Assembly: GCA_021294835.1 (NCBI GenBank)
Contig: JAJTDF010000004.1
Coordinates: 1 to 64,000, forward strand
Direction: 5' to 3'
Length of the DNA stretch: 64,000 bases
Source: Planctomycetaceae bacterium
GTDB taxonomy: Bacteria > Planctomycetota > Phycisphaerae > Phycisphaerales > UBA1924
A program made the translations under genes and the position numbers. Positions 11,042 to 55,816 of the stretch are shown one piece after another; positions within the stretch are counted from its first letter, which is position 1, and each line of letters opens with the position of its first letter. The notes beneath the pieces were generated by a model, which worked only from the letters and a program-made list of their open reading frames with translations, did no database searches and had not been told where the DNA came from.

Positions 11042-11968
11042 TCACGCACCGGGGGAGCGCTGCTGAGATCGACTCCGCCCGGGCGGGAGGCCGGTCGCAC
11101 CTTTGGTCGGCCGAAGCACTCGTTGCAGCCAGCGGTCAATCACCGCGTCTATCTCGCCGCCGGGCTGGTAGGCCCAGACATGGCCGCCGGTGGCGGTGAT
11201 GTGCAGCGTGACGGGAACCCTCCGTGCACGAGCCGCAGCGAACAGCCGAAGCGAGTGGTATGGTGGAACGTCATGGTCATCGGCCGCATGCAGCAAAAGC
11301 AGCGGGGTCGCACCGAGAGCTTCGGCGTACTGCACGGGCTCGGGAGGGTCAGACCCGCCGAACAGCCAGCCGACCACCGGCACAAGGTCATTGGCGACAT
11401 CTCGCCATCGGGAGAACGGCGATCCGGCAATGACCCCTGCGACCGGACGGCCCTGGGCGTGAGCGGCGGCCGCACAGGCCATGGCGTATACACCTCCCAT
11501 GGAGTGTCCGTACAGAAGAACGCGATCGGGGTTCACATCCTCACGGGAGCGGAGAACGTTGAGCGCTGCGACGGCGTCGGCAGCGAGAGCCTGATTGGTG
11601 AAAGGGCCGCCGTCGGAGTTCCCGAAACCACGATAATCGAATGCGAATACCCGCCAGCCGGCCTCTCGAAAGATATCAGCCATTTGGCTCTCGGCGGTGT
11701 CGGCTACCCCATGGCAGAACAGCACCGTGACGTCGCGGAACTGATCGGGCAGGGGCGTTCGACCTTCGGCATGACGCGGAGCAAAGAGCCGCCCCTCAAG
11801 CGTGATGCCATCACCGCCCGGAAAGCGGACCACTTGGGTTGAGCAGTCCGCCGGCGGCGGAAGCGGACCGGCAGCGGGAATCAGCGACGGGCCGGCACAG
11901 CCTGCGAACATCGCCGCACATATCCACCACAGGCTGGTGATCAGCACGCACCGCTCCGCATTGCTCAT
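11042..11968 (-). CDS. Alpha/beta hydrolase, lipoprotein type
   Basis: 308 aa. A serine hydrolase anchored as a lipoprotein: the lipobox FAGC ends at Cys24. The fold shows the nucleophile elbow GHSMGG (Ser156), the acid in HAADDHDVP (Asp231 or Asp233) and the catalytic His263 in GGHVW. DYRGFGNSDG (about 111-120) is typical of the BEM46/ABHD13-like branch. The substrate cannot be read from sequence. The gene converges with the HD-GYP gene (26-bp gap) and diverges from the methyltransferase gene with only 40 bp between the starts, so the two divergent promoters must overlap. Confidence 0.8.
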   Translation of the reverse strand: MSNAERCVLITSLWWICAAMFAGCAGPSLIPAAGPLPPPADCSTQVVRFPGGDGITLEGRLFAPRHAEGRTPLPDQFRDVTVLFCHGVADTAESQMADIFREAGWRVFAFDYRGFGNSDGGPFTNQALAADAVAALNVLRSREDVNPDRVLLYGHSMGGVYAMACAAAAHAQGRPVAGVIAGSPFSRWRDVANDLVPVVGWLFGGSDPPEPVQYAEALGATPLLLLHAADDHDVPPYHSLRLFAAARARRVPVTLHITATGGHVWAYQPGGEIDAVIDRWLQRVLRPTKGATGLPPGRSRSQQRSPGA

Positions 11969-14716: not shown

Positions 14717-15232
14717 TCAGGTGTCAGGGTGCATGGCGATGTACCAGTCGATGGGATCGATCTCCATCGGAGGATGATTGACCCCCAACTGCCGGAGCAT
14801 GTTCAGGCACTGACTGCGGTGGTGGGTGCCGTGTGCCAGAACGTGAGCGATCGCTGAGGCCTTGCTGAAGCGAACGTGCCTGTCGGGTGCGACCTGGTAA
14901 TCCAGCACGGCGTCCTCGGCACGGTCTTGCAGAACACGGCGGATGGACTGGGCCAGATCAGGCCCGACATGATCCAGCAGGTGCAGGACGCCGTTGGGCG
15001 ACAACGGATAGTCGGGGTTCTCCGGCGAAGGACGGAGGGGACGCTCGGCCAGACGATCCGCCCATCGCTGCATGGAGCCGACGATGTGCAGGGTCGTGTC
15101 GTGCAGCGACCCTTTGCCGATGGCAAACCGCTGGCCGAACTGCTCGGAAGTCAGGGTGCGGCAGCGCAGAAGAATCTGGCGGCTCGCCCAGAAATCGTAC
15201 TTCACCAGAATCTCAACAACTCCAAGAACCAT
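14717..15232 (-). CDS. DinB-like four-helix protein (first of two)
   Basis: 171 aa. It fits the DinB/YfiT-like metalloenzyme superfamily: a four-helix bundle with three metal-binding His, here HIVGSMQRW (about residue 49) and HVLAHGTHHRSQC (about 130-141). Members include thiol-dependent S-transferases and DNA-damage-inducible proteins of unknown role. Its neighbour 27 bp upstream on the same strand is a second member, so they probably form one transcript. It converges on the chemoreceptor gene with 4 bp between the stops. The precise substrate is unknown. Confidence 0.7.
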   Translation of the reverse strand: MVLGVVEILVKYDFWASRQILLRCRTLTSEQFGQRFAIGKGSLHDTTLHIVGSMQRWADRLAERPLRPSPENPDYPLSPNGVLHLLDHVGPDLAQSIRRVLQDRAEDAVLDYQVAPDRHVRFSKASAIAHVLAHGTHHRSQCLNMLRQLGVNHPPMEIDPIDWYIAMHPDT

Positions 15233-15259
15233 GAGCGGAAAGGTGCGGGGGTGCGGACA

Positions 15260-15829
15260 TCAGGCCAGAGCGGGCTTGAATCCCAGAGCACGCCGGGTGT
15301 CGGCGATCTGGCCGGTGTGGAATCCGTTGTGGAACACCATGCGGACAATGAGCATGCGCAGGGGCATCTCAGCAGTGCCCCAGCGAATGGGACGATCCAA
15401 CTCGGTGTCCGGAAGGGCCGCGACGGCGGATGCCAGACGATCGGCGGCGGCATTGAAGATGTCGATGCAACGGTCGAGCTTGGGGAAGCGGTCGTGACGC
15501 TCCTCAGGGCGGGAGCCGTAAGCGACAGCTTCGATGTCGAACACACCACGCTCACGAGAGCCCTTGAAGCCGTCTCCGGCGACAAAGTGTGCCACAGGAA
15601 GGCCGCCGCCGTCGATCATGCCGGCGACCCGATGCATGGTCAGGGCGCAGTGACCGAGGATCCAGGCAAGGTGGTTGGGCAGGTCGGGAGTCTGGCGGAC
15701 GTGGGTGACATCGTTGAAGCCAACCAGATATCGGGCGGTGAGCAGTTTGCAGGCGGACACGGCCTCGGACAGAACCGCGGCCCGGGCGGAATGGGAGGGC
15801 GAAGGAGAGGCAGAGGCGGTGTCACTCAT
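15260..15829 (-). CDS. DinB-like four-helix protein (second of two)
   Basis: 189 aa. The same superfamily as the downstream gene: His near 'LAWILGHCALTMHR' and a C-terminal FHNGFHTGQIADTR, the H-x3-H metal site typical of DinB-like proteins, followed by RRALGFKPALA. ATG 15829 was chosen because the long upstream reading is low-complexity; AAGGAG-type SD is not seen. Together with the 14717-15232 gene it forms a tandem pair, likely an old duplication. Function unknown. Confidence 0.7.
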   Translation of the reverse strand: MSDTASASPSPSHSARAAVLSEAVSACKLLTARYLVGFNDVTHVRQTPDLPNHLAWILGHCALTMHRVAGMIDGGGLPVAHFVAGDGFKGSRERGVFDIEAVAYGSRPEERHDRFPKLDRCIDIFNAAADRLASAVAALPDTELDRPIRWGTAEMPLRMLIVRMVFHNGFHTGQIADTRRALGFKPALA

Positions 15830-15854
15830 GGCTGAGGATAAGCCGGCAACGAAA

Positions 15855-15892
15855 GGGGCCGGATCCGGAGGGTCAACTCCGAAGCCGGCCCC
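15855..15892 (-). terminator. Terminator after the large secreted protein gene
   Basis: GGGGCCGG (15855-15862) pairs with CCGGCCCC (15885-15892), with an inner GGAG/CTCC helix. On the minus strand it is followed by TTTCGTT, 43 nt beyond the stop codon at 15936. Confidence 0.65.
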
Positions 15893-15935
15893 GATAAGCG
15901 ATGGACGCTGAGGCTTCTCGAGATGGAAGCGGAAG

Positions 15936-18818
15936 TTACGGGCAGCCAGAGGCAAAGGCGGCGATGAAGGCGTTGAAGTCGTCGCCGGTGACCAGACCGT
16001 CCGGCCCGGCGGTACCGCCGATGCCGACGATATCCGCAGCGGGCAGACCGCAGCCATAGGCCGCCTGGCCGGCGGCGAAGGCGCCGATGTAGGCGTTGAA
16101 GTCGTCGCCGGTCAGCAATTCATCCGCCCCGGGCACTCCGCCGATGCCGACGATGTCAGCCGGGCAGGCGAAGGCAGCACGGATGATGCCGATGTCGAAA
16201 GACGTGATCTGGCCATCGCCATCCATATCACCCCTGGCCCAGCCGCCTGCGGCACCTGAATTGACAGTGGCGATGCTGAGGTCAGCGGCGTCGACGGTGC
16301 CGTCGAGGTTCACGTCGCCGAACCGTGTGCCGAGGATGACGGTCACCAGCTCGCACACGTCGGCGTTGTCCACGATCAGGTCGCCGGTCATGTCGGCCGA
16401 GAGATCAAATCGGACGGCCTCGCTGAGGTCGGACCAGTTGGCGGCGCCGTCGGTGACGAAGGCGTTGCGGCGGAACTGGGCGGTGACAAAGTCGATGTCG
16501 GCGGCGTTAATCACGCCGTCAGCGCCGATGGGGGCAAAGCCGGGGGTGGTGGGCCCGACGGTGCCCGGGGCCGCCCCTGGCGCGGCCACGTCACCCCGGC
16601 TGTCGCCGGCGACGTAGGCCTTGCCGGTGGCAATCGCGGTCGCGAAGATGTTGCCCGCGAAGGCGGTGTCCAGAGCAACGAAGCCCGCCTTGCGATCCAG
16701 GCGACGCTGGCCGGTGGCCGTCATGGCCAGGCCGTCGGCCCAGTAGCGGAGGTCGGCGGCGTTGAAGTTGCCGTCGCCGTTGAAGTCGCCGAGGATCTCG
16801 ATGACAGCGTCACCACCGGAGGCGCCGGCGATGCCGCCGGCAGACTGAGCGGCACCGGTGCCCGAGGGGGCGTTCCAGACCGGGCCGCCGGTACGCTGAC
16901 GGAAGGCGGCGACCATGTCGGCGGCGTCGTTGATGTTGCGGAGACCGTCGCCGCTGAAGTCGCCGGCGATCTTGTTGCGGAGCGACAGGGCGGTGCCGTA
17001 GATCACGGGATTGCCGGACTGGTTGACGTAGTTGCCGCCACCAACGACGCCGTCGGTGTAGGTCTGACCGGCGGTACGGGCGGGAACGAGGCCCGTGCCG
17101 GAGAGCCGGAAGGATGCGTAGATGGGATCGGCCATCACGCTGTTGGCACGGGTGAAGTCCTGCAGCGACTGATTGAACGCCGGGTTGGGCAGGAGCTGCG
17201 TGGGGTTGATGGTGTTCTGCACGAGGTCCAGCGCACCGGAGAGGACGAAGATGGTGGCGGCACGCTCGCCGGGCATGAACAGGGTGTTGTCGCCGCCGGG
17301 GAGGCGGATGAAGGCCTCGATGGAACGGGTCACGTTGTTGACGTAGGCGGCCGCTTCAGCGTTGCGCATCGCCGGGGTGGCGGGGCCAGTCTCAGCAGCG
17401 GGGCGGGTGGGGTCCTTGAAGCTGAAGAAGGAGGGGTCGGACGGATCAAGCCCAGCCGGACGGGTGGGCCGGGTGTCGCGATCCCACGCCCACTGGGGCC
17501 AGTTGCGGCCACCCTTTGCAGAGGCGGCGGCGCGGGGGTCACCGATGGTGATCAGCACGGCGGGGCCGCCGATGACAAAGCCGTTGGCGGTGTTGTCCAG
17601 CAGGTTGTCGATGGTTGGACGGGCGAAAACGGTGCCGCCGATGTGATCGTTCTGGACGGCGAGGAGTTCAAAGCGACCGCTGGAGAGCCAGCCCTGGGCG
17701 GAGGAGGCCCCGCGCTCGACGCCGACGTAGCCGATGGCCAGACGGTGGTTGAGGACCGCACCCTCGACGCGCTCGTTGGAGGACTTGTTGGTGGGGATGA
17801 AGTCCGGGCCGAGCAGGTCCTGAAGCGACTGAGTGGAGAGGGCGCCGATGTTCTCGCCCACGCCCCATGCCGGATCCTGGCCGATGGAGTTCTGGAAGCC
17901 GTTGCGGGTACCGGAGCCGACGTCGCGGGTCACGGCCATGAGGTTCTCGCCGCTGGGCAGGCGGCCGGAACCGAAGAGGTGCTGCAGCTCGGTGACGCGG
18001 ATCTGCGTCATGCCGGTGCCGAAGTTGGTGACGGCGCCAATGGGGGCGAAGGCAAGGTTGTTGTCGAACAGCACGTTGCCGTTGGTGGCGGGCTGGGGGT
18101 TCTGGGGGTTGAAGAACTCCAAGTCGGGCTGGCCGGCAACCGAGAGGGTCGGCAGGCTGTTGCTGAGGTTGGCGCCGGTGGAGCCACCCTGCTTGTTCAG
18201 CGAGGAGCGGGTGTTGACGCCGTATCCAGGGGTGCCGGGGAGGCGGGCCCAGAAGCCGGTGCCGCTGGTCTGGACGGCCCAGCGGGAGGGGACGTCGCAG
18301 GGGGCGACGTCAAAGCGGAGACCGTCAGACGGGCCGCCGGGAAGGGCGACGCGGAGGGTGGCCTGGTTGGCTCGGGTGGGCAGGGCCCCGGGGTTCTCGG
18401 AGTTGCCGGCAGAGCCGATGACGTTGCTGGTGATGAAGCGGGTGCGGTTGTACCAGGCACCGTTGATGTTGGTGGAGAGGGTGGTGTTGTTGGTGACGAA
18501 GATGCGGCCGAAGCGGGCCAGTTCGACGAACCCGTTCACGGAACCGACGTTGCGATAGGAGACGGCCCAGACGCCGGTGGGCGGGTTGATGGTCGACGCG
18601 GCAAGCTGCTGGACGGTCGGCGAGGCAAGGTAGCCGGCGACGCCGTTGGCGTCCACATCGATGAAGTCGTTGGTGGAGGCCGGGGCGATGACGAAGTTCT
18701 GCAGCAGCGTGGCGCCGGTGATGTTGACGGCGGTCGGCTGGGCCGCGGCCACCGACACCGCCGTACCCACCAGGCCACAGGCGACGAACCGACGCAGAGT
18801 TGCGGAAGACGGGTTCAT
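15936..18818 (-). CDS. Secreted PstS-like protein with dockerin-like C-terminal repeats
   Basis: 960 aa. ATG 18818 has AAGGAG 6 nt upstream and begins a signal peptide (cleavage after SVAAAQ). The N-terminal ~400 residues resemble a phosphate-type substrate-binding protein: NITGATLLQNF and YRNVGSVNGF at the start, RVTELQHLFGSG and RDVGSGTRNGF later, matching the PstS pattern of GAT, GS.G and GSGTR ligand loops. The C-terminal third carries EF-hand/dockerin-like calcium loops (GDFSGDGLRN, GDFNGDGNFNAAD, GDVNLDGTVDAAD, GDMDGDGQITSFD) and then two tandem 'GIGG..G.D.L.TGDDFNA.I.AFA' repeats ending GCP. Such GC-type dockerin tails are common in Phycisphaerae surface proteins. Likely secreted or surface-bound; the ligand is not proven. 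Confidence 0.75.
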   Translation of the reverse strand: MNPSSATLRRFVACGLVGTAVSVAAAQPTAVNITGATLLQNFVIAPASTNDFIDVDANGVAGYLASPTVQQLAASTINPPTGVWAVSYRNVGSVNGFVELARFGRIFVTNNTTLSTNINGAWYNRTRFITSNVIGSAGNSENPGALPTRANQATLRVALPGGPSDGLRFDVAPCDVPSRWAVQTSGTGFWARLPGTPGYGVNTRSSLNKQGGSTGANLSNSLPTLSVAGQPDLEFFNPQNPQPATNGNVLFDNNLAFAPIGAVTNFGTGMTQIRVTELQHLFGSGRLPSGENLMAVTRDVGSGTRNGFQNSIGQDPAWGVGENIGALSTQSLQDLLGPDFIPTNKSSNERVEGAVLNHRLAIGYVGVERGASSAQGWLSSGRFELLAVQNDHIGGTVFARPTIDNLLDNTANGFVIGGPAVLITIGDPRAAASAKGGRNWPQWAWDRDTRPTRPAGLDPSDPSFFSFKDPTRPAAETGPATPAMRNAEAAAYVNNVTRSIEAFIRLPGGDNTLFMPGERAATIFVLSGALDLVQNTINPTQLLPNPAFNQSLQDFTRANSVMADPIYASFRLSGTGLVPARTAGQTYTDGVVGGGNYVNQSGNPVIYGTALSLRNKIAGDFSGDGLRNINDAADMVAAFRQRTGGPVWNAPSGTGAAQSAGGIAGASGGDAVIEILGDFNGDGNFNAADLRYWADGLAMTATGQRRLDRKAGFVALDTAFAGNIFATAIATGKAYVAGDSRGDVAAPGAAPGTVGPTTPGFAPIGADGVINAADIDFVTAQFRRNAFVTDGAANWSDLSEAVRFDLSADMTGDLIVDNADVCELVTVILGTRFGDVNLDGTVDAADLSIATVNSGAAGGWARGDMDGDGQITSFDIGIIRAAFACPADIVGIGGVPGADELLTGDDFNAYIGAFAAGQAAYGCGLPAADIVGIGGTAGPDGLVTGDDFNAFIAAFASGCP

Positions 18819-28899: not shown

Positions 28900-28953
<54 letters not shown>

Positions 28954-41948: not shown

Positions 41949-42713
41949 TCAGGCGAGAGCGGGGCGGTCGGCAAAGCCAAAGCGTGCCCCCCAGGTGCGA
42001 ATCGTGAACACCGTCAGGAGGTAGCCCACCGCTCCGCCCACCAGCACATCAGAGAGGTAATGGGCGTCGAACAGCAGCCGGGCAAAGCCGACCAGCGCAG
42101 CCAGCGGGAAGACCAGCCAGCGGACCCGCGGGAACATGGCCGCCAGGACCGTGCTGGCGACGAACGCGAAGGCGGTGTGGCTGCTGGGCATACTCCAGAG
42201 ATCAGAGGAGATGCCGGCGGTGATGTCCCACGAGTGCACCAGACGGATCACGCCGTCCTTGCCGGTGTGCGGGTACTGGCCGAAGGGGCCGAGGAACAGC
42301 GTGGGGTCGTAGGGCTCCCGCATCCGGGGGCGGGGCCGCCCCAGGCCCATCTTCAGCACCGTGGTCACCAGTCCGGTCAGCCCGGCGGCAATCGCCCAGA
42401 CCCACAGTTGACGGAGGCGGCCGGGGACCAGCAGAGCGATGGCGATGGCCAGCAGCACGCTGACCGAACCCTGCCCGTACTGCTGGAGGGCCTGCAGTTC
42501 GCGGCGGATGTCACCCGGGAACGAGGCCCCGTGCAGGGCCTTGTCGATCGCGCCATCAAGCGGGATGAGGAAGTAGGCGAGGGTGATCACGGCGATGGGG
42601 ACGGCCCACCACCGGTTGGCACCCCACCACTGCGCGGGCGTGGGCTTGGCCGGGGGCGGCGATGGGTGGGCGGGGCTAGCGTTCGATGCGTTGTTTGCTT
42701 CGTGGTTGGACAT
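41949..42713 (-). CDS. PAP2-superfamily phosphatase
   Basis: 254 aa, integral membrane with about six helices. The three PAP2 motifs are present: K121-x6-R128-P129 in KMGLGRPRPR, PSSH (His179), and R212-x5-H218-x3-D222 in RLLFDAHYLSD. It likely dephosphorylates undecaprenyl diphosphate or phosphatidic acid at the membrane. ATG 42713 (CAT at 42711-42713) shares its bases with the start of the divergent glycosyltransferase gene; no SD is visible and the N-terminal 30 residues are Ala/Pro-rich. It abuts the DUF255 gene on the same strand (24 bp). Confidence 0.8.
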   Translation of the reverse strand: MSNHEANNASNASPAHPSPPPAKPTPAQWWGANRWWAVPIAVITLAYFLIPLDGAIDKALHGASFPGDIRRELQALQQYGQGSVSVLLAIAIALLVPGRLRQLWVWAIAAGLTGLVTTVLKMGLGRPRPRMREPYDPTLFLGPFGQYPHTGKDGVIRLVHSWDITAGISSDLWSMPSSHTAFAFVASTVLAAMFPRVRWLVFPLAALVGFARLLFDAHYLSDVLVGGAVGYLLTVFTIRTWGARFGFADRPALA

Positions 42714-44634
42714 GCTGTCGCGCTCGGCCCGGGCGTGGACGGGCCGCTGGTCGTCGGGCGGCCTGCTGCTGGTGGTGCTCTGCGGCGCAGTGTATCTGCC
42801 CGGGCTGTGGGCCTTGCCGGCGATTGACCGGGATGAGTCGCGGTTCGCGCAGGCCAGCCGACAGATGTTCCAGAGTGTCGCCTGGCCGGAGAGCCGGCTG
42901 GAACGAACCACGGCGGACGGACGGCCGGGCCCGCACTCGGGCGGACTGGCCATCCCCATGGTGCAGGACCGCCCGCGGCTGAACAAGCCGCCGCTGATCT
43001 ACTGGCTGCAGACGGCCTCGGCGGCGATCCTGACCGGGGGGCAGCCCGACCGCGACGCGATCTGGATGTACCGCGTGCCCAGCGTGCTGTGCGCCGTGCT
43101 GGCGGTGCTGGCCACCTGGCGGCTGGGGCTGGGGATGTTCGACCCGCGGGCGGCCTGGCTGGGCGCAGCGCTGCTGGCGATCTGCCCGATGGTGGTGTGG
43201 GACGCCCATCAGGCCCGGGCGGACCAGTTGCTGCTGGCGACGGTGACGGTGATGCAACTGGCCCTCTGGAGGGTGTACAGCGCCCGGCCGGGGCACCGGT
43301 CGGGTCGGTGGGACACCGTGCGGGTCCGCAGGGGCATGCCCCTGCTGTTCTGGGCGGCGCTGGCCGCCAGCGTGCTGGCCAAGGGGCCGATCGGACCGAT
43401 GGTGGCGGCGTTGACGGTGCTGGCGATCGGCCTGAGCGGGGGCGGCTGGGCGTGGCTGGGGCGGCTGCGGTGGGCGGTTGGCGTGCCGCTGCTGGCGGTG
43501 GCGGTGGGCCTGTGGGTGGGCGTGGTGGTGCGGCACATCGGGTGGGACGCCTACTTGGCCATCCTGAACGACGAGGTGCTGCGGCGCGCGACGGTGGGCA
43601 GCGCCGAGGGCCATGCCATGCCCCCGGGAACGCATCTGGTGCTGCTGGCCGCCTTGTTCTGGCCCGGCTCGCTGCTGACTCTGGCGGCGTTCGGACGGGC
43701 GTTTCGGGTGGGGCTGCCCCGACGCACCGAGGCCCATCCGGCGGCCCAGGCCGGCTGGCCGGCGCGTCTGCGGGCGGCACTGCGGCGAGAGCCCGGCCGC
43801 GAGGCGGAGTTGTTCCTGCTGGCCTGGCTGGTGCCGGCGTGGGTGGCGTTTGAACTGTTCACCAGCAAACTGCCGCATTACACCATGCCGATGTACCCGG
43901 CGGTGGCGTTGCTGTCGGCCCGCATGGTGCTGGCAGCGGGCGCAGCGGTGGCCAGGGGTCGCACCGTGCCGGGGTTCTCCGGAGCAGGGGCCATGTTGTG
44001 GGCGGGCATCGGGCTGGTGCCGGCGATCGGGGCGGTGGCGATCACGCCCTTGGTGCAGGACCGGGGCGGGGCGACGAGGCTGGACCAGATGGTGGCCCCG
44101 GTCGGCGTGGCGATCATGCTCGCGGGCGTGGGCCTGCTGGTCATGGCGGCGGCACGGGCCCGCCGGGGTGATCTGCTCAGGGCGCAGGTGCTGTCCATCC
44201 CCGGAGCGGTGCTGGTGCTGGGGGCGGCGTTGCAGGTGACCCTGCCCCGGGTGGCCCCGGGAGCGACGACGGCCGAACTGGCAGCCGCCTTGGAGCGGAT
44301 TCCCGGGCAGGAGGCCCGGCCCATCGGCACCTACTACCACGAGGACTCGATCGTGTTTGCCACCCGGGGGCGGGCGGTGCGGTTGCACGAGAGCACGGCG
44401 GCGTGGGTGCACGACCACCCGGGGGCCATCGGCATCGTGCCGTTTGATGGCCGGGTGCTCACCAGGCCGTGGCGCACAGGTGATGACATCGCCGGCAAGG
44501 TCAGCACCGGACTGCTCGGCCTGCAAGGTGAGACCTGGCTGGTGCTGACCCCCCCACTGGTGGCACGCCCCGAAGCCGACGCTCCGCCAGCCACCAACTC
44601 CGGCTCTGCACGTCCGGAGGGATCCCAGCCATGA
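42712..44634 (+). CDS. ArnT-like/GT39 family membrane glycosyltransferase
   Basis: 640 aa with about twelve transmembrane helices. GT39 enzymes move sugars from polyprenyl-phosphate donors. The first periplasmic loop has the conserved acidic pair D41-E42 in AIDRDESRFAQASR, followed by NKPPLIYWLQ and VWDAHQARADQ, all family hallmarks. ATG 42712 lies in the CATG shared with the divergent PAP2 gene; upstream in-frame TTG codons at 42691 and 42706 are possible. The stop overlaps the next gene (truB fusion) as ATGA. The acceptor (protein, lipid A or teichoic-like) is unknown. PAP2 and GT39 together suggest undecaprenyl-linked glycan chemistry. Confidence 0.8.
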   Translation: MLSRSARAWTGRWSSGGLLLVVLCGAVYLPGLWALPAIDRDESRFAQASRQMFQSVAWPESRLERTTADGRPGPHSGGLAIPMVQDRPRLNKPPLIYWLQTASAAILTGGQPDRDAIWMYRVPSVLCAVLAVLATWRLGLGMFDPRAAWLGAALLAICPMVVWDAHQARADQLLLATVTVMQLALWRVYSARPGHRSGRWDTVRVRRGMPLLFWAALAASVLAKGPIGPMVAALTVLAIGLSGGGWAWLGRLRWAVGVPLLAVAVGLWVGVVVRHIGWDAYLAILNDEVLRRATVGSAEGHAMPPGTHLVLLAALFWPGSLLTLAAFGRAFRVGLPRRTEAHPAAQAGWPARLRAALRREPGREAELFLLAWLVPAWVAFELFTSKLPHYTMPMYPAVALLSARMVLAAGAAVARGRTVPGFSGAGAMLWAGIGLVPAIGAVAITPLVQDRGGATRLDQMVAPVGVAIMLAGVGLLVMAAARARRGDLLRAQVLSIPGAVLVLGAALQVTLPRVAPGATTAELAAALERIPGQEARPIGTYYHEDSIVFATRGRAVRLHESTAAWVHDHPGAIGIVPFDGRVLTRPWRTGDDIAGKVSTGLLGLQGETWLVLTPPLVARPEADAPPATNSGSARPEGSQP

Positions 44635-46670
44635 ACGCCCAGAGCGCCGACGGCGGCACCCCCTCCCCCACCGGTTTGCTGGCCATTGACAAGCCCCTCG
44701 GCCTGACCTCCATGGATGTCTGCCGGCGGGTCCGCCGGCGGCTGATCAACGGCGGTGCGCCCAAGCGCGTCAAGGTCGGGCACGGCGGGACGCTCGACCC
44801 GCTGGCGACCGGGGTGCTGGTGGTGCTCATCGGCAAGGCCACCCGCCTGTGCGACGCGGTGATGGCCGGCGAGAAGGGCTATCTCGCTGAAGTCTCGCTG
44901 GCGGCATTCTCCACTACGGATGATGCCGAAGGCGAACGAACTGAGGTGCCGGTCGCGACGCCCCCCACTGCCGACGCAGTGGCCCGGGCCTGTGCCGGCT
45001 TCGTCGGTCGGATCATGCAGCGGCCGCCGGTGTACTCGGCGCTGAAGATCAACGGACAGGCGGCCTACTCACTCGCCCGCAAGGGCCAGACCGAGAAGAT
45101 CCCGCAAACCGCCCGTCCGGTTGACATCCACGAGATCACCGTCGTCGAATACGACTTCCCGAGACTGGTGCTGTCGGTCCGCTGCGGCAAGGGGGTGTAC
45201 ATCCGCTCGCTGGGCCGCGACCTGGGCACGGCCTTGGGCACCGGCGGCATGCTGACGGGCCTGCGGCGGACCCGGGTGGGCATGTGGCACATCGACACCT
45301 GCCGCCAGCTCGATACCCTGCCCGACAAGCTCTCCCAGACGGATCTGCTGCCTGTGCCCCCACTTGATTCCGCCCCCATGACCACTTCCCCCGCCACGGC
45401 TTCCCCCATCGCCCCCCCCACCCCCCCTGCCCCCCCCGCTTCCGCCGGTGCCGGCGAGCCCCGCCCGGTCAAGTCCGCCCGGCTGGCTGCGCTGCCGCCG
45501 TTTCTGTTCAACGCCATCGACGACAAGAAGCGGGCCGCCATCGCCGCCGGGAAGGACGTGATCAACCTCGGGGTGGGCGATCCGGACCGGCCGACACCGG
45601 CGTTCGTGATCGAGGCCTTGGAGAAGGCAGCGCGGGTGCCGGCCAACCACCAGTACCCCGACTGCTATGGCACCGCCGAGTTCCTCAGCGCCGCCGCGGA
45701 GTTCATGTCCCGCCGCTTCGGCGTGAAGGTGGACCCCAAGCGGCACCTGGTGGCCACTATCGGTGGCAAGGACGGCATCGCCCACCTGCCCGTGGGCGTG
45801 GTGAACCCCGGCGATGGCGTGGTGGTGTTCACCCCGGCCTACCCGGTGTACGCCTCGGCCAGTTCGCTGGCCGGGGGCGTGGTGCACCGCGTGCAGACAA
45901 CCGCACAGGACCGTTGGCTGCCCAACTTCACCAATCTCTCCGAGGCTGTGCTGCGGGGCACGCGGCTGATGTGGCTGAACCACCCCGGCAACCCCACCGG
46001 CTCGGCGGCGCCGCTGAAGGTCTATCAGGACGCTGTGCGGCTGTGCGCTGACCGGAACATTATCCTCGCTTCCGATCTGGCCTACAGCGAGATCTACTTC
46101 GAGGGCGGACCGGCCAGCGTGCCGAGCATGTGGCAGGCCCCCGGAGCCGACCTGGAGCGGACGCTGGGCATCGAGTTCCACTCGCTCAGCAAGACCTTCA
46201 ACATGACCGGCTGGCGGATCGGCTTCGCCGTCGGCAACGAGCAGGTCATCGCGGCCCTCAAGCAGGTCAAGGACAACTACGACTCCGGCGTGTTCAACGC
46301 CATTCAGGCGGCGGGTGCCGCGGCACTGCGGAACTACGACCATCCGGAGATCGCCGGCATGCGTGCGGAGTATCAGGTGCGGCGGGATCTGGTCGTGCCG
46401 GCGCTCAAGTCCATCGGCTGCGTGGTGCAGCCGGAGCGGGGCCCGGAGGCGGGGATCTTTGTGTGGGCACGCTGCCCGGTGGACAGCGCTACCGGCAAGC
46501 CGATGAGTTCGTGGCGGTTCGTTGAAAAACTCATCGATGAAGCCGCGGTGGTGACGGTGCCCGGTGCCGGGTTTGCCGATTCGGCCGCCGACTGCTTCCG
46601 CCTGAGCCTGACACGTGAGACCTCGCGGCTGAGCGAAGCGATGACACGGCTCGCGGGGCTTCGCTTCTGA
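44631..46670 (+). CDS. truB: Fused TruB pseudouridine synthase and DapL-like aminotransferase
   Basis: 679 aa in one frame. Residues 10-240 are TruB (tRNA pseudouridine-55 synthase): GLLAIDKPLGLTSMDV, the catalytic Asp56 in GHGGTLDPLATG, RPPVYSALKINGQAAYSLAR, YIRSLGRDLG. An Ala/Pro/Ser/Thr linker (about 250-275) follows, then a ~400-aa class I/II aminotransferase resembling LL-diaminopimelate aminotransferase (lysine biosynthesis): INLGVGDPDRPTP, NHPGNPTG, and PLP-binding Lys521 in SLSKTFNMTGWRIGF. ATG 44631 overlaps the GT39 stop (ATGA). An in-frame ATG at 45378 (residue 250) could start the aminotransferase separately, and the +1 frame has TGA exactly there (ATGA), so a frameshift in the nearby C-runs may have merged two genes. 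Confidence 0.8.
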   Translation: MNAQSADGGTPSPTGLLAIDKPLGLTSMDVCRRVRRRLINGGAPKRVKVGHGGTLDPLATGVLVVLIGKATRLCDAVMAGEKGYLAEVSLAAFSTTDDAEGERTEVPVATPPTADAVARACAGFVGRIMQRPPVYSALKINGQAAYSLARKGQTEKIPQTARPVDIHEITVVEYDFPRLVLSVRCGKGVYIRSLGRDLGTALGTGGMLTGLRRTRVGMWHIDTCRQLDTLPDKLSQTDLLPVPPLDSAPMTTSPATASPIAPPTPPAPPASAGAGEPRPVKSARLAALPPFLFNAIDDKKRAAIAAGKDVINLGVGDPDRPTPAFVIEALEKAARVPANHQYPDCYGTAEFLSAAAEFMSRRFGVKVDPKRHLVATIGGKDGIAHLPVGVVNPGDGVVVFTPAYPVYASASSLAGGVVHRVQTTAQDRWLPNFTNLSEAVLRGTRLMWLNHPGNPTGSAAPLKVYQDAVRLCADRNIILASDLAYSEIYFEGGPASVPSMWQAPGADLERTLGIEFHSLSKTFNMTGWRIGFAVGNEQVIAALKQVKDNYDSGVFNAIQAAGAAALRNYDHPEIAGMRAEYQVRRDLVVPALKSIGCVVQPERGPEAGIFVWARCPVDSATGKPMSSWRFVEKLIDEAAVVTVPGAGFADSAADCFRLSLTRETSRLSEAMTRLAGLRF

Positions 46671-46696: not shown

Positions 46697-47386
46697 ATGA
46701 ACTGGGACAACCTGCTTTTTCTGCATTGGCCGGTTGAACCTGACCTTCTCCGTCGGCTGGTGCCCGAGCCGCTGGAGATCGACACGTTCGATGGCCGCGG
46801 CTGGGTGGGGCTGGTGCCCTTCACGATGGCCGACTGCCGCTTTGCCGGCGTGCCCTGCTTGCCCGGGCTGACGAACTTCTACGAGTGCAACGTACGGACG
46901 TACGTGCGACACCGAGGCGTGCCGGGGGTGTGGTTCTTCAGCCTCGATGCCCAGACGCTGCTGCCGGTGGCAGGTGGACGCTGGCTGTGGAGTCTGAACT
47001 ACGTGTACAGCCGCTTTGTGGTGAAGCGGGAGAGGCCGGAGGCTGGACGGGGCGAGGTGATCGATTACCGCCTTTCGCGGCGGCCCGGCCCCTGGCCGGC
47101 GGCGGAGACCCACGTGCGCTGGCGGGCGGGTGACCCGCTGCAACGGGACCCCAAGGGGGATGATCTGGCCAGTTTTCTCACCGAGCGGTATTGGCTGTAC
47201 ACCAAGCGGCGGGGAAGCGTGTGGGCGGGGCAGGTCAAACACACGCCCTGGTCTCTCCGACAAGCGGAGGTGCTGCATCTGGAAGACACGCTGGTGGGGG
47301 CGGCAGGACTGGAGGTGGGCGGCCTTCCGCTGGCGTACGCCAGCGAGCACATGGCGGTGGAAGGACTGGCGCTGCAACGCCACTGA
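46697..47386 (+). CDS. DUF2071 (YqjF-like) protein
   Basis: 229 aa. The family signature is clear: LLFLHWPVEPDLLRRLVPEPL then DTFDGRGWVGLVPFTM, TNFYECNVRTYVRHRG, and VWFFSLDAQ. The N-terminus is slightly short by family standards. Function unknown; family members bind small ligands in a barrel-like fold. 26 bp separate it from the fusion gene, so it is probably in the same transcript as GT39 and TruB-DapL. Confidence 0.8.
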   Translation: MNWDNLLFLHWPVEPDLLRRLVPEPLEIDTFDGRGWVGLVPFTMADCRFAGVPCLPGLTNFYECNVRTYVRHRGVPGVWFFSLDAQTLLPVAGGRWLWSLNYVYSRFVVKRERPEAGRGEVIDYRLSRRPGPWPAAETHVRWRAGDPLQRDPKGDDLASFLTERYWLYTKRRGSVWAGQVKHTPWSLRQAEVLHLEDTLVGAAGLEVGGLPLAYASEHMAVEGLALQRH

Positions 47387-51995: not shown

Positions 51996-53726
51996 CTAGG
52001 CGGATGGTGATTTGGGGGCGTCGGGCCTGACGGCTGCCGGCGTTGGAGGAGCCGCCGGCACGGCGCCCGGCGGATTGGCCCACCGAAGGCCGGAGAGGCC
52101 GGCACCAAGCAGGCAGAAGTACCAGCACACGCCTGGTGCGGTGCCAGCAAGCACCCAACCGGCCCACGGCAGCACCTCGGCGGTGCGGGATGGCACGTTG
52201 ACCACGGCCACAACGGCAGCGCCAAGAACCGCAAACGGAATCGCCAGGCTGGCGTGGGCCGTCAGCACACTGGCGATGTCACCGCGAATGCGCGAGCGGC
52301 CGAGCAGCCGATGGCAAGTGGCGACGAGTGAACCGCCGATGACGGCGAGGCAGCAGAGGCCGCCGACGAGAACGCAGAAGCCAAACGCCACCGAGAAAGG
52401 GAGCACACTTTGGTTGGCAGTCGACCCATCGACTGAGCCGACCGATGCGGCCGACCAGTCGGCAATGCTCAGCACCAACACAACGCCAATTCCGGTGAGC
52501 GTGATGAGGAAGGCAAGGAGGTAGTTGAACATCTCCAGATCAGCAGGATCGTCCTTCCCCACGTCGGCCCGTCTGAAGCAGGCTTTGGCACGGGTGCCGC
52601 CAAAGCCCACCGCCCGCAGCGTGGACCACCAGCGGGCAACCCGGCCGGGCCCGGCGACCTGCCAAGGGGTGCCGGTGCGGCGGGCGGGTGAGGAGTCGGC
52701 GATGGGGGCCTTGCAACCGGCGCACAGGTCGTTCTGCTCTGCGTGGTGCACGGCCCGCCCGCACGACTCGCACAGCAGCGGCTCGGGGGGCTCGAGCATT
52801 GCAGGCGCGGCTGGCGCAACGCGTTGGAGCACCGTCGCATAGCGGGTGCGGTACAGGCCGAAGACGACCAGCGGCGGGATGGCGGCGAACATCGCGGGTA
52901 TGAGCAACATCACCGCCTCCGACCCGGTGACCGCCGAGAAGATCAGAACCCCGATCGCCACGACGGCGCCGACGGGCATGAAGATGAGCACATGGCGGGC
53001 AACCAGCCGCGGAGCGTTGACGTCCGCGCCAAGGCCGAGATGGGACGCGACAACCCGCGCGAAGCAGATGACCGCCGTTGCGATGCACAAGGCCCCCAGG
53101 GCAGTGAGCCCCCAGCCGAGCATCGCAAGGGCGATGGTCCACCCCAGACCCTGCCAACCCGCGCCGGAACCAACGCCGATGATCAACGCCAGCAGCGTGC
53201 CTGCGCCGCCGACCAGAGCGGCGGGAAGGAGAATGGCCTGAACATCGGCACGCGTCGCCCCTCGCTCCTCACGCACGCCGATCCGCAGTTGATCGAACCA
53301 CTCGCCGAGCCGACCGGTGATCAGGTGATCCAGAGCATCCCGGACGCACACGCCCCAAGACTGCCCCGCCTGCGCCGGCGAACCGGCCAGGCGCTGCGTG
53401 CTGACCGGCTCAACGGCCGATCCACACTCGCTGCAGCGTGCGGCGGGCCGGCCCGAACCGTCCAACAGCCACGGATACCCGCACTGGCCGCAGACGACAG
53501 GGCCGATCAACTGGAACACTTCGGGCGGGTTGACCGCGTCGCACTCCGGGCAGCGCAGAGGCAGGCTTGGGTCACCCGATTGGCCCAGGCCGGTGAGGTC
53601 GTACCCGCAGCCTGAGCACACCGTGGGCGGGAGGTACGTTCGCCCGTCCCGGAAAACCACTGCGCACGACGCGACAGCGGCCGAAGGCGGAGTGGTTGGC
53701 TGTGGGGATTGGCTTGCTTCAGCCAT
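51996..53726 (-). CDS. Zinc-ribbon multi-pass membrane protein, two-module (CGYDL family)
   Basis: 576 aa, function unknown. Three Cys4 ribbons: C37-x2-C40/C59-x2-C62, C79/C82-C98/C101, and C319/C322-C335/C338. The first includes CSGCGYDLTGL. After the third comes RTGTPWQ (352-356). Two blocks of membrane helices (about 165-295 and 400-550) surround this, so the gene looks like a duplicated module. The start ATG 53726 overlaps the stop of the next gene upstream by 8 nt (ATGGCTGA). First in a head-to-tail series with two smaller relatives. No enzymatic motif seen. Confidence 0.7.
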   Translation of the reverse strand: MAEASQSPQPTTPPSAAVASCAVVFRDGRTYLPPTVCSGCGYDLTGLGQSGDPSLPLRCPECDAVNPPEVFQLIGPVVCGQCGYPWLLDGSGRPAARCSECGSAVEPVSTQRLAGSPAQAGQSWGVCVRDALDHLITGRLGEWFDQLRIGVREERGATRADVQAILLPAALVGGAGTLLALIIGVGSGAGWQGLGWTIALAMLGWGLTALGALCIATAVICFARVVASHLGLGADVNAPRLVARHVLIFMPVGAVVAIGVLIFSAVTGSEAVMLLIPAMFAAIPPLVVFGLYRTRYATVLQRVAPAAPAMLEPPEPLLCESCGRAVHHAEQNDLCAGCKAPIADSSPARRTGTPWQVAGPGRVARWWSTLRAVGFGGTRAKACFRRADVGKDDPADLEMFNYLLAFLITLTGIGVVLVLSIADWSAASVGSVDGSTANQSVLPFSVAFGFCVLVGGLCCLAVIGGSLVATCHRLLGRSRIRGDIASVLTAHASLAIPFAVLGAAVVAVVNVPSRTAEVLPWAGWVLAGTAPGVCWYFCLLGAGLSGLRWANPPGAVPAAPPTPAAVRPDAPKSPSA

Positions 53727-54516
53727 GGGCGGTCGTTCCGGAACCGGGAGTCACAACGCTGCCGGCCGACGGAAGGTTCGCAAAATGACACCGGCGAACC
53801 CCGAAGAAGACCACAGTCTCAAACACGAACATGCCCGCCAGGAAGCCGATCACCCCCCCACTGACCACGCCGGGCACCGGCCAGATGAACACCTCCACCC
53901 ACGGCAGCACGCGAGCGCCGACCAGCGAACCCACAGGCGTCAACACACCGGCCAGCACCCACGCGGGCGAGGCGTGCGCAACCACCACCCACGCGACGTC
54001 GCTGGTGATCCGCCAGGAACGCTGCCGGCCGAACATCCGCAGGCCGACGGTCTCGATGGCCGTCAGCGTGTGAAGCAGCAGCGGACCCACTATGGCGGCG
54101 ATCCCAGCCGTCAGCCACATGCCCGCCAGCGCGAAGCCCACCCCGGCGACCACCGAGGCCAGCACCACGCTGGCCACCAGCAGAGACCGCGAGGCCGGCC
54201 AGTCCACCCGCACGCGGCCAAAGGCCGCCCGCCACCGGCCGGGGTGCGGCCCCAGATGGGCAACCTCGACCAGCCAGGCCATTGGCGAGGCCCCACGCAC
54301 CTGCCAGGGCGAGCCGACGCGCAACGCAGGGCTGGAGGCGGCGCGGTCGGCTCCGCACTCCGGGCAAGAGCCCGACTGCGGCAGAGTGGTCAGGTCGTAG
54401 CCGCAGGATTCGCACAGCAGCAGGTGCGGATCAAGCAGAGCGGTCGTGCCGCGGGCGGCAGCGTCGGCACGGGTGCCGGCGGCCGGGCGGGCTGGCGGTG
54501 TGCGTGTCTCAGCCAT
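53719..54516 (-). CDS. Zinc-ribbon membrane protein, single module (CGYDL family)
   Basis: 265 aa. One ribbon CESCGYDLTTLPQSGSCPECG (Cys35, 38, 51, 54), then GSPWQ (68-72), an amphipathic segment (WRAAFGRVRVDW) and about five membrane helices. The same order as the C-terminal module of the 51996 gene and the 54509 gene. Overlaps 8 nt at both ends with its neighbours (ATGGCTGA twice), so all three must be translated from one message. Function unknown. Confidence 0.7.
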   Translation of the reverse strand: MAETRTPPARPAAGTRADAAARGTTALLDPHLLLCESCGYDLTTLPQSGSCPECGADRAASSPALRVGSPWQVRGASPMAWLVEVAHLGPHPGRWRAAFGRVRVDWPASRSLLVASVVLASVVAGVGFALAGMWLTAGIAAIVGPLLLHTLTAIETVGLRMFGRQRSWRITSDVAWVVVAHASPAWVLAGVLTPVGSLVGARVLPWVEVFIWPVPGVVSGGVIGFLAGMFVFETVVFFGVRRCHFANLPSAGSVVTPGSGTTAHG

Positions 54517-55195
54517 TGGCGGGCTCTTCAACCACCGGTGCCACGGCCACCCCCCAGCGGCCCCAGATCGCTGCCAGCACCGGCGCCCCGCCGACGCAAC
54601 CCAAGGTCAGCCAACCCGGAAGCGAGAGCGCCAGACCGCCGGCGGTCAGCACAACCGCCGGCGGCAGAAGGGCCGCGGCGTGGATCATGATGCCCCAGGC
54701 ATGCGAACCGTCGAGCCGCCGCTGGGTCACCACCGCGGCCCAGGCAACCACACACCACAGCAGCATCAGCAACCCCACCAGCCAGCAGACAAGCACGGCG
54801 AACATGACCACCGAAACGAGCACGGACGATCGGGCCGGATTTGGTAGGCCGCCGGCCAGGCTGTTCGTGAGCAATGACACCAAGGCCACGGCGGAGCAGC
54901 CAAGAACAGCAGCGAACACGTGCGCTGCCAGCAGGCCATCGGTCCCGCCGGGCCGCACGGAACAGAACACCGCACGCCACGACTGCGGTCCGCCGCACAA
55001 CGCCCGGAGCAGCAGCAGGTAGCGACGAACAGCCGACCCGCGGTATCGCTGCTGCCACGGCGACCCCTTCGGCATCGGAAGGCGCGACCGCCAGCCGGCG
55101 AACCCACACTCGGGGCAGACCGTCGCCGATGGGACCGAACTGAGGTCGTAGCCGCAGCGGAGGCACGGTTGCGGGATGTGATCCTCCGACGTCAT
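54509..55195 (-). CDS. Zinc-ribbon membrane protein, single module (CGYDL family)
   Basis: 228 aa. CLRCGYDLSSVPSATVCPECG (Cys11, 14, 27, 30) starts almost at once, then GSPWQ (44-48), WRAVFCSVRPG and five or so helices. First gene of the three-gene run; ATG 55195. It diverges from the Fur-family regulator gene with about 150 bp between starts, so the regulator could control it, but no operator is identified. Function unknown. Confidence 0.7.
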   Translation of the reverse strand: MTSEDHIPQPCLRCGYDLSSVPSATVCPECGFAGWRSRLPMPKGSPWQQRYRGSAVRRYLLLLRALCGGPQSWRAVFCSVRPGGTDGLLAAHVFAAVLGCSAVALVSLLTNSLAGGLPNPARSSVLVSVVMFAVLVCWLVGLLMLLWCVVAWAAVVTQRRLDGSHAWGIMIHAAALLPPAVVLTAGGLALSLPGWLTLGCVGGAPVLAAIWGRWGVAVAPVVEEPANG

Positions 55196-55342
55196 GACCC
55201 GAACAGTGTACGACCATCTCGCTCCGAGCGGGCCAGCACAGGGGATGGCGTGGTCCCGAAACGGCCTGCAACTCGTCCGGCCGCATCCCGCCGTGCCCGG
55301 CTCCGGTTGACTCGGCGCAGCCAGACCCCATGATTGTGTTGC

Positions 55343-55816
55343 GTGACCGATGCCCGAACCAGATCGATCCTCGAGCGGCATGGCCTCCGCTGCACCAGGC
55401 AGCGGGCGGAGATCTACCACGCGCTGGTCTCCACATCCAGCCATCCGACCGCCGAAGAACTCTTCGGGATGGTGCGCAACCGCCTGCCCGGGCTGTCGCT
55501 CGCCACGGTGTACAACACGCTCGACGCGTTCGTCCGCCGCGGCCTGGCCCGCAAGTTCGCCCTGCCGCCCAGCGTGGGCGAGGACCCGTCAGCATCGGCC
55601 CCGGCCCCGGCGGCCCGGTACGACGCGGATACCTCCGAACACATCCACCTGATCAGCGACCACGGCAAGGTGCGGGATGTTCCGCCGGATCTGGGGCGGC
55701 GGCTGATCGACGGACTGCCGCCGGACGTGCTGGATGAACTGGAACGCCGCATGGGCGTGAGCATCGACCAGGTCCGCATCGAAATCTCCGGCACCTCCAC
55801 CGGCCGGTCGTGCTGA
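55343..55816 (+). CDS. Fur-family regulator lacking the structural zinc cysteines
   Basis: 157 aa from GTG 55343 (a TTG at 55334 gives three more residues). The winged helix is standard: HGLRCTRQRAEIYHAL, HPTAEELFGMV and SLATVYNTLDAFVRRGLARKF. The regulatory metal ligands of PerR/Fur are kept (His in HPTAEEL, Asp of RYDAD, HIH, Asp of VRDV). The structural-zinc Cys pairs are missing: HLISDHGK stands where most have HLVCxxCG, and the only Cys is the last residue. It is followed after 61 bp by the FNR gene, which suggests a redox or metal response. Confidence 0.8.
   Translation: MTDARTRSILERHGLRCTRQRAEIYHALVSTSSHPTAEELFGMVRNRLPGLSLATVYNTLDAFVRRGLARKFALPPSVGEDPSASAPAPAARYDADTSEHIHLISDHGKVRDVPPDLGRRLIDGLPPDVLDELERRMGVSIDQVRIEISGTSTGRSC

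Follow-up and report, generated by a model that had tools for sequence, protein, structure and literature searches.

Does the open reading frame that joins a tRNA pseudouridine-55 synthase (TruB) to a DapL-like aminotransferase encode one protein, or does a missing or extra base hide two adjoining genes? A preliminary description of this locus left these two readings, a true fusion or one indel, side by side. They are the right pair to weigh, and the data separate them only in part. On balance, we favour a real, recent and lineage-specific fusion of TruB and the aminotransferase, without special function. Under either reading, each enzyme is an unexceptional representative of a known family. 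Below, the window is the whole 64-kb stretch of DNA that was analysed, and the features under discussion are listed in Table 1.

Table 1. Features of the fused gene and its surroundings, in window coordinates
Feature	Coordinates	Strand	Remarks
PAP2 phosphatase	41949..42986	-	on the outer side of the conserved block PAP2 / GT39 / truB
GT39-like (PMT_2) glycosyltransferase	42583..44634	+	ATGA overlap with truB; coding signal from about 42714
TruB part	44631..45377	+	tRNA pseudouridine-55 synthase, complete, 249 residues, catalytic motif GHGGTLDP
Junction	45357..45381	+	C5 at 45357-45361 and 45373-45377; out-of-frame TGA at 45365 (+2) and 45379 (+1, ATGA)
Aminotransferase start and leader	45378..45491	+	ATG 45378; Ser/Thr/Ala/Pro-rich; holds C8, C7 and C8 runs
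Aminotransferase part	45492..46670	+	DapL-like, fold type I, PLP lysine motif SLSKTFNMTGWR; stop TGA 46668-46670
DUF2071 protein	46697..47386	+	next gene downstream of the fused gene
Fur-family regulator	55334..55816	+	orthologue of the Fur gene of G016; used to test contig continuity

Two complete enzymes in one open frame

The open reading frames of the window include one of 679 amino acids on the forward strand, from the ATG at 44631 to the TGA at 46668-46670, without an internal stop. As first described, TruB and the DapL-like aminotransferase thus share one frame, open throughout 44631-46670, and both domains are complete: Pfam matches cover residues 47-191 (TruB_N), 192-233 (TruB_C_2) and 308-674 (Aminotran_1_2). 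Across the join the chain contains the stretches ...LLPVPPLDSAPMTTSPATASP... and ...TDLLPVPPLDSAPMTTSPATASP... The source assembly, a 3.85-Mb draft in 170 contigs that is 89% complete, yielded only one TruB and only one close DapL-like gene, so both halves are probably needed.

The TruB half passes the cut-off of TIGR00431 (191.3 bits vs 151.45). Its motif GHGGTLDPLATG is invariant across the TruB alignment, and the Asp of GTLDP is established as the catalytic one. Like the other members of TIGR00431 (solved relatives 1sgv, 1k8w and 1r3e, the first being the nearest solved chain), it has the complete domain with GHGGTLDP and, like its relatives, carries nothing C-terminal past TruB_C_2. Its upstream neighbours also match those of many relatives, in which the block PAP2(-) / GT39(+) / truB(+) is conserved. 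What sets it apart is that the stop codon is missing where one would normally stand.

The aminotransferase half matches PF00155 with 202 bits (gathering score 19.7) over positions 1-361 of the 361 of the profile, and the lysine of its SLSK motif (the PLP lysine) is invariant across the alignment. The name DapL given in the preliminary description stands as a family-level guess: the closest models are those of LL-diaminopimelate aminotransferase, with a full-length match and the PLP-lysine motif SLSKTFNMTGWRIGF, but the bit scores stay under both curated cut-offs (429.9 vs 507 for NF006756, 420.6 vs 593.25 for TIGR03540). The stand-alone orthologues of the congener G001 and of the relative G019 likewise fall under these cut-offs. 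The half is 74% identical to the G001 protein, from which it differs in having TruB in frame ahead, and its closest solved chain, 2x5d, is a 'probable aminotransferase'. Since this genome gave no DAPAT_plant match above cut-off and no THDPS_N_2 (dapD N-terminal) match, the two markers of other diaminopimelate routes that were tested, a DapL role would fit, without being proved.

The ends of both genes at the join

The TruB part (...TDLLPVPPLDSAP) and the stand-alone TruB of G001 end in the same alignment column, directly before the ATG at 45378. In the relatives whose TruB end was read, the stand-alone proteins stop just past the domain (...NLTQPPAELLQR in G001, ...TQGDLRAV in G019, ...SDLLPIPAQFAR in G068), and native ends in relatives read ...DLLPIPAQFAR*, ...DLIPVPASA* and ...DLLEVPGPE*. 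On the other side of the join, the closest aminotransferase orthologues begin with a short Ser/Thr/Ala/Pro-rich leader followed by LxALPPFLFN (N-termini MSSFTPSETAAAPAFAGPIKSLRLQALPPFLFN in G001, MSTRTAPSPVVVKPPVPARADRLLALPPFLFN in G019 and MTAPAAITDTHTNPNPSAPKPTDLRAERLRALPPFLFN in G178). From ATG 45378 onward the fused frame reads MTTSPATASPIAPPTPPAPPASAGAGEPRPVKSARLAALPPFLFN, which we liken to the leader segments MSSFTPSETAAAPAFAGPIK of G001 and MSTRTAPSPVVVKPPVPARAD of G019. Given this resemblance, the stretch is the aminotransferase's own start and leader rather than a linker born with the fusion, as it had initially been taken to be; stand-alone orthologues carry such a leader too. Because the TruB end and the aminotransferase leader both match stand-alone orthologues, two unaltered genes abut with only the stop missing. 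In end-to-end fusions through stop-codon loss, an adjacent co-directional pair likewise keeps its own ends, and the present case differs solely in which pair is involved.

In this one lineage the aminotransferase gene would recently have come to stand at the end of the old PAP2 / GT39-truB block, immediately after its final gene, truB, and a small change at the boundary would have removed the stop between the genes, leaving the TruB C-terminus in place. The aminotransferase would have retained its own start (ATG 45378) and flexible leader. The mRNA as assembled would yield one 679-residue chain whose enzyme halves work independently, with the Ser/Thr/Ala/Pro leader as a passive tether between them; free aminotransferase may also arise through initiation at ATG 45378. 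Neither an internal promoter nor a terminator showed up at the join in a consensus scan. No RNA structure of the recoding type was found there, the fold being weaker than that of shuffled sequences (z +1.95). We infer that the junction bases are right and that one chain is made, without new joint function.

Distribution of the fused form

We searched for the fusion at two taxonomic levels, with matches listed best first in both searches, so that a second fusion matching both halves strongly should top the list. A junction query against 163 genomes of the family, source included, returned a second fused form in none of the other 162 among the matches listed. With the full-length query, no other match spanning the join was found among those listed from a sample of 301 genomes of the order, source included. 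The join is also absent from 40 relatives and from the 80 best loci of a scan of genome contigs. A fusion common to the relatives was not found among the matches listed, and we reject it. Separate truB and aminotransferase genes, whose presence in relatives had been proposed as a check, were found in every relative examined. The recurrence in several species that defines a Rosetta-stone fusion is not seen here: among the matches listed from the 163 family and 301 order genomes, the source genome stands by itself. A literature search gave no description of a TruB-aminotransferase fusion, and we know of none.

A possible hidden indel

It is possible, as the main rival reading, that truB and the aminotransferase are two separate, adjoining and probably co-transcribed genes, the consensus or the strain being off by one base within about 45350-45378, for example in a C5 run. 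The stop of TruB would then be the TGA at 45365 (base added) or that of the ATGA at 45378-45381 (base removed). One base more makes TruB end in ...DLLPVPPT* and one base fewer in ...DLLPVPHLIPPP*, and both resemble native ends of relatives. With a TGA in each of the other frames at the junction, a change of one base in either direction gives an ordinary gene pair. The +1-frame TGA at the internal ATG had been pointed out in the preliminary description together with the ATGA overlap of GT39 and truB, and we recovered both. The latter lies at 44631-44634 and occurs in G001 and G019 as well, which adds to the case for a hidden indel, as does the separation of the two genes in all other genomes examined. 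Over the 679 codons, stops number 10 and 21 in the two other frames; from this density, stops in both within about 7 codons would be expected by chance in about 2% of cases, although the start codon itself partly accounts for the ATGA.

The position of the C-runs narrows this reading. The C-rich surroundings ascribed to the join do comprise the two C5 runs of Table 1, which are the only homopolymers of at least five bases between the TruB end and ATG 45378, but the long runs (C8 at 45412-45419, C7 at 45421-45427, C8 at 45430-45437) lie downstream of this ATG, inside the aminotransferase leader. An indel within C8/C7/C8 is rejected, since these runs are past the ATG and both candidate stops: it would break the aminotransferase and not restore a TruB stop. 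Hence, the expected correction in a long C-run, giving back a TGA before the second gene, is not borne out, and only 45350-45378 matters for a hidden indel. The long runs also look correct modulo three, because with these lengths the aminotransferase body shares its frame with ATG 45378, which orthologues suggest as the start. Slippage in the tract C8-A-C7-TG-C8 (45412-45437) would turn the aminotransferase on or off.

The hidden indel is weakened by these facts, that is, by junction runs of only C5 and by long runs whose lengths preserve the frame set by the aminotransferase's own ATG, and by the base-level quality of the window. A Viterbi scan with codon composition over the 64 kb found no clear frameshift elsewhere, and its same-strand switches correspond to stop/start overlaps, to gene ends or to positions inside intact ORFs. 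We could therefore discard a frameshift-ridden assembly: an intact ORF, 11042-11968(-), underlies the segment at 10.7-11.9 kb, and the switch at 15955 reflects the normal end of a gene (TAA at 15936). These results speak for accurate base calls, and leave room for a single error at the junction. The long poly-C tracts of this genome, which point to unstable C-runs or to problems in assembly, count for the hidden indel. Taken together, the real fusion is supported by an intact frame, complete domains, contig continuity (see below), the lack of another frameshift and the presence of only C5 runs at the junction; it is weakened by its occurrence in one draft genome, by the TGA in both other frames and by the absence of the join elsewhere.

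Some features of the window and of other genomes were noted in passing. A run of 54 C occupies 28900-28953, just upstream of an rpsP-like gene (ribosomal protein S16). C-tracts of at least 20 number about 11 in the source genome and occur in 12 of the 25 genomes searched (source included), with none in the congener G001; in some genomes long C-tracts lie near contig ends. Long poly-C tracts could be truly unstable or could be an artefact of sequencing or assembly. On the minus strand, 14717-16057 holds two similar-looking adjoining DinB-like genes in different frames (15260-16057 and 14717-15232); a large protein that carries dockerin-like repeats immediately precedes them.

Probable continuity of the contig across the join

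Another reading makes the contig a chimera, put together within the C-rich stretch of low complexity, in which case truB and the aminotransferase would not be true neighbours. The two genes never adjoin in the relatives read. In G001 the aminotransferase is next to a large heme-binding-type protein and pilus or secretion-type genes, and in G019 to livH/livM-type transporter genes and a ribosomal protein L21-like gene (names judged from translations), neighbourhoods quite different from the one seen here. In the closest genomes outside the genus (G112, G068, G113, G178 and G115), truB and the aminotransferase lie on separate contigs. Wherever a relative was found to carry the DUF2071 gene, this gene adjoins neither of them, which adds to the case for a chimera and led us to reject it as an operon partner.

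Against this, the gene order of G016 extends across the join. In that genome truB is followed by a Zn-ribbon protein (-) and by Fur (+), the latter about 1.5 kb downstream of truB, and the same order and orientation recur downstream of the fused gene. The best match of the G016 Fur in the source genome is the gene at 55334 of the window, with 49% identity vs 32% for the next, about 8.7 kb past the fused gene. A Zn-ribbon gene similar to that of G016, without Pfam match, lies at 53722-54531(-). This synteny indicates that the DNA on either side of the join probably belongs together. By one clear orthologue and one weaker match, the contig is probably contiguous across the join. A chance join would in addition need the exact position of a gene end and the right frame. 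We regard a chimera as quite improbable. Tandem genes for Zn-ribbon, membrane-protein-like products (CxxCGYDLTGL / CxxCGYDLSSV) fill 51996-55444 (-) and adjoin the Fur gene, and the truB-adjacent Zn-ribbon gene of G016 also adjoins Fur.

A protein selected to couple tRNA modification to the synthesis of lysine or cell-wall precursors is hardly credible: both enzymes look intact and each half is single copy in the assembly, but no other such protein appeared among the matches listed from the 163 family and 301 order genomes, the joining segment is the ordinary leader of the aminotransferase, and we know of no pathway link between the two roles. It is likewise very improbable that this lineage makes a real one-chain bifunctional protein by which diaminopimelate synthesis is physically tied to the pseudouridylation of tRNA U55.

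Meaning of the fused gene

Since truB and the aminotransferase gene are separate in every relative examined, what we see is a local accident at the end of a gene, or else an assembly error of one base, and not a novel type of enzyme. The fusion offers no ground for a functional link between the two pathways. It also calls for caution in annotation, as an automatic pipeline would yield one protein of 679 amino acids and the source genome could then seem to be without a truB or a DapL-like gene of its own. Should the chain be real, the locus would be a small natural example of a gene fusion seen at its very beginning, in which the ancestral end of TruB and the second gene's own start can still be made out.
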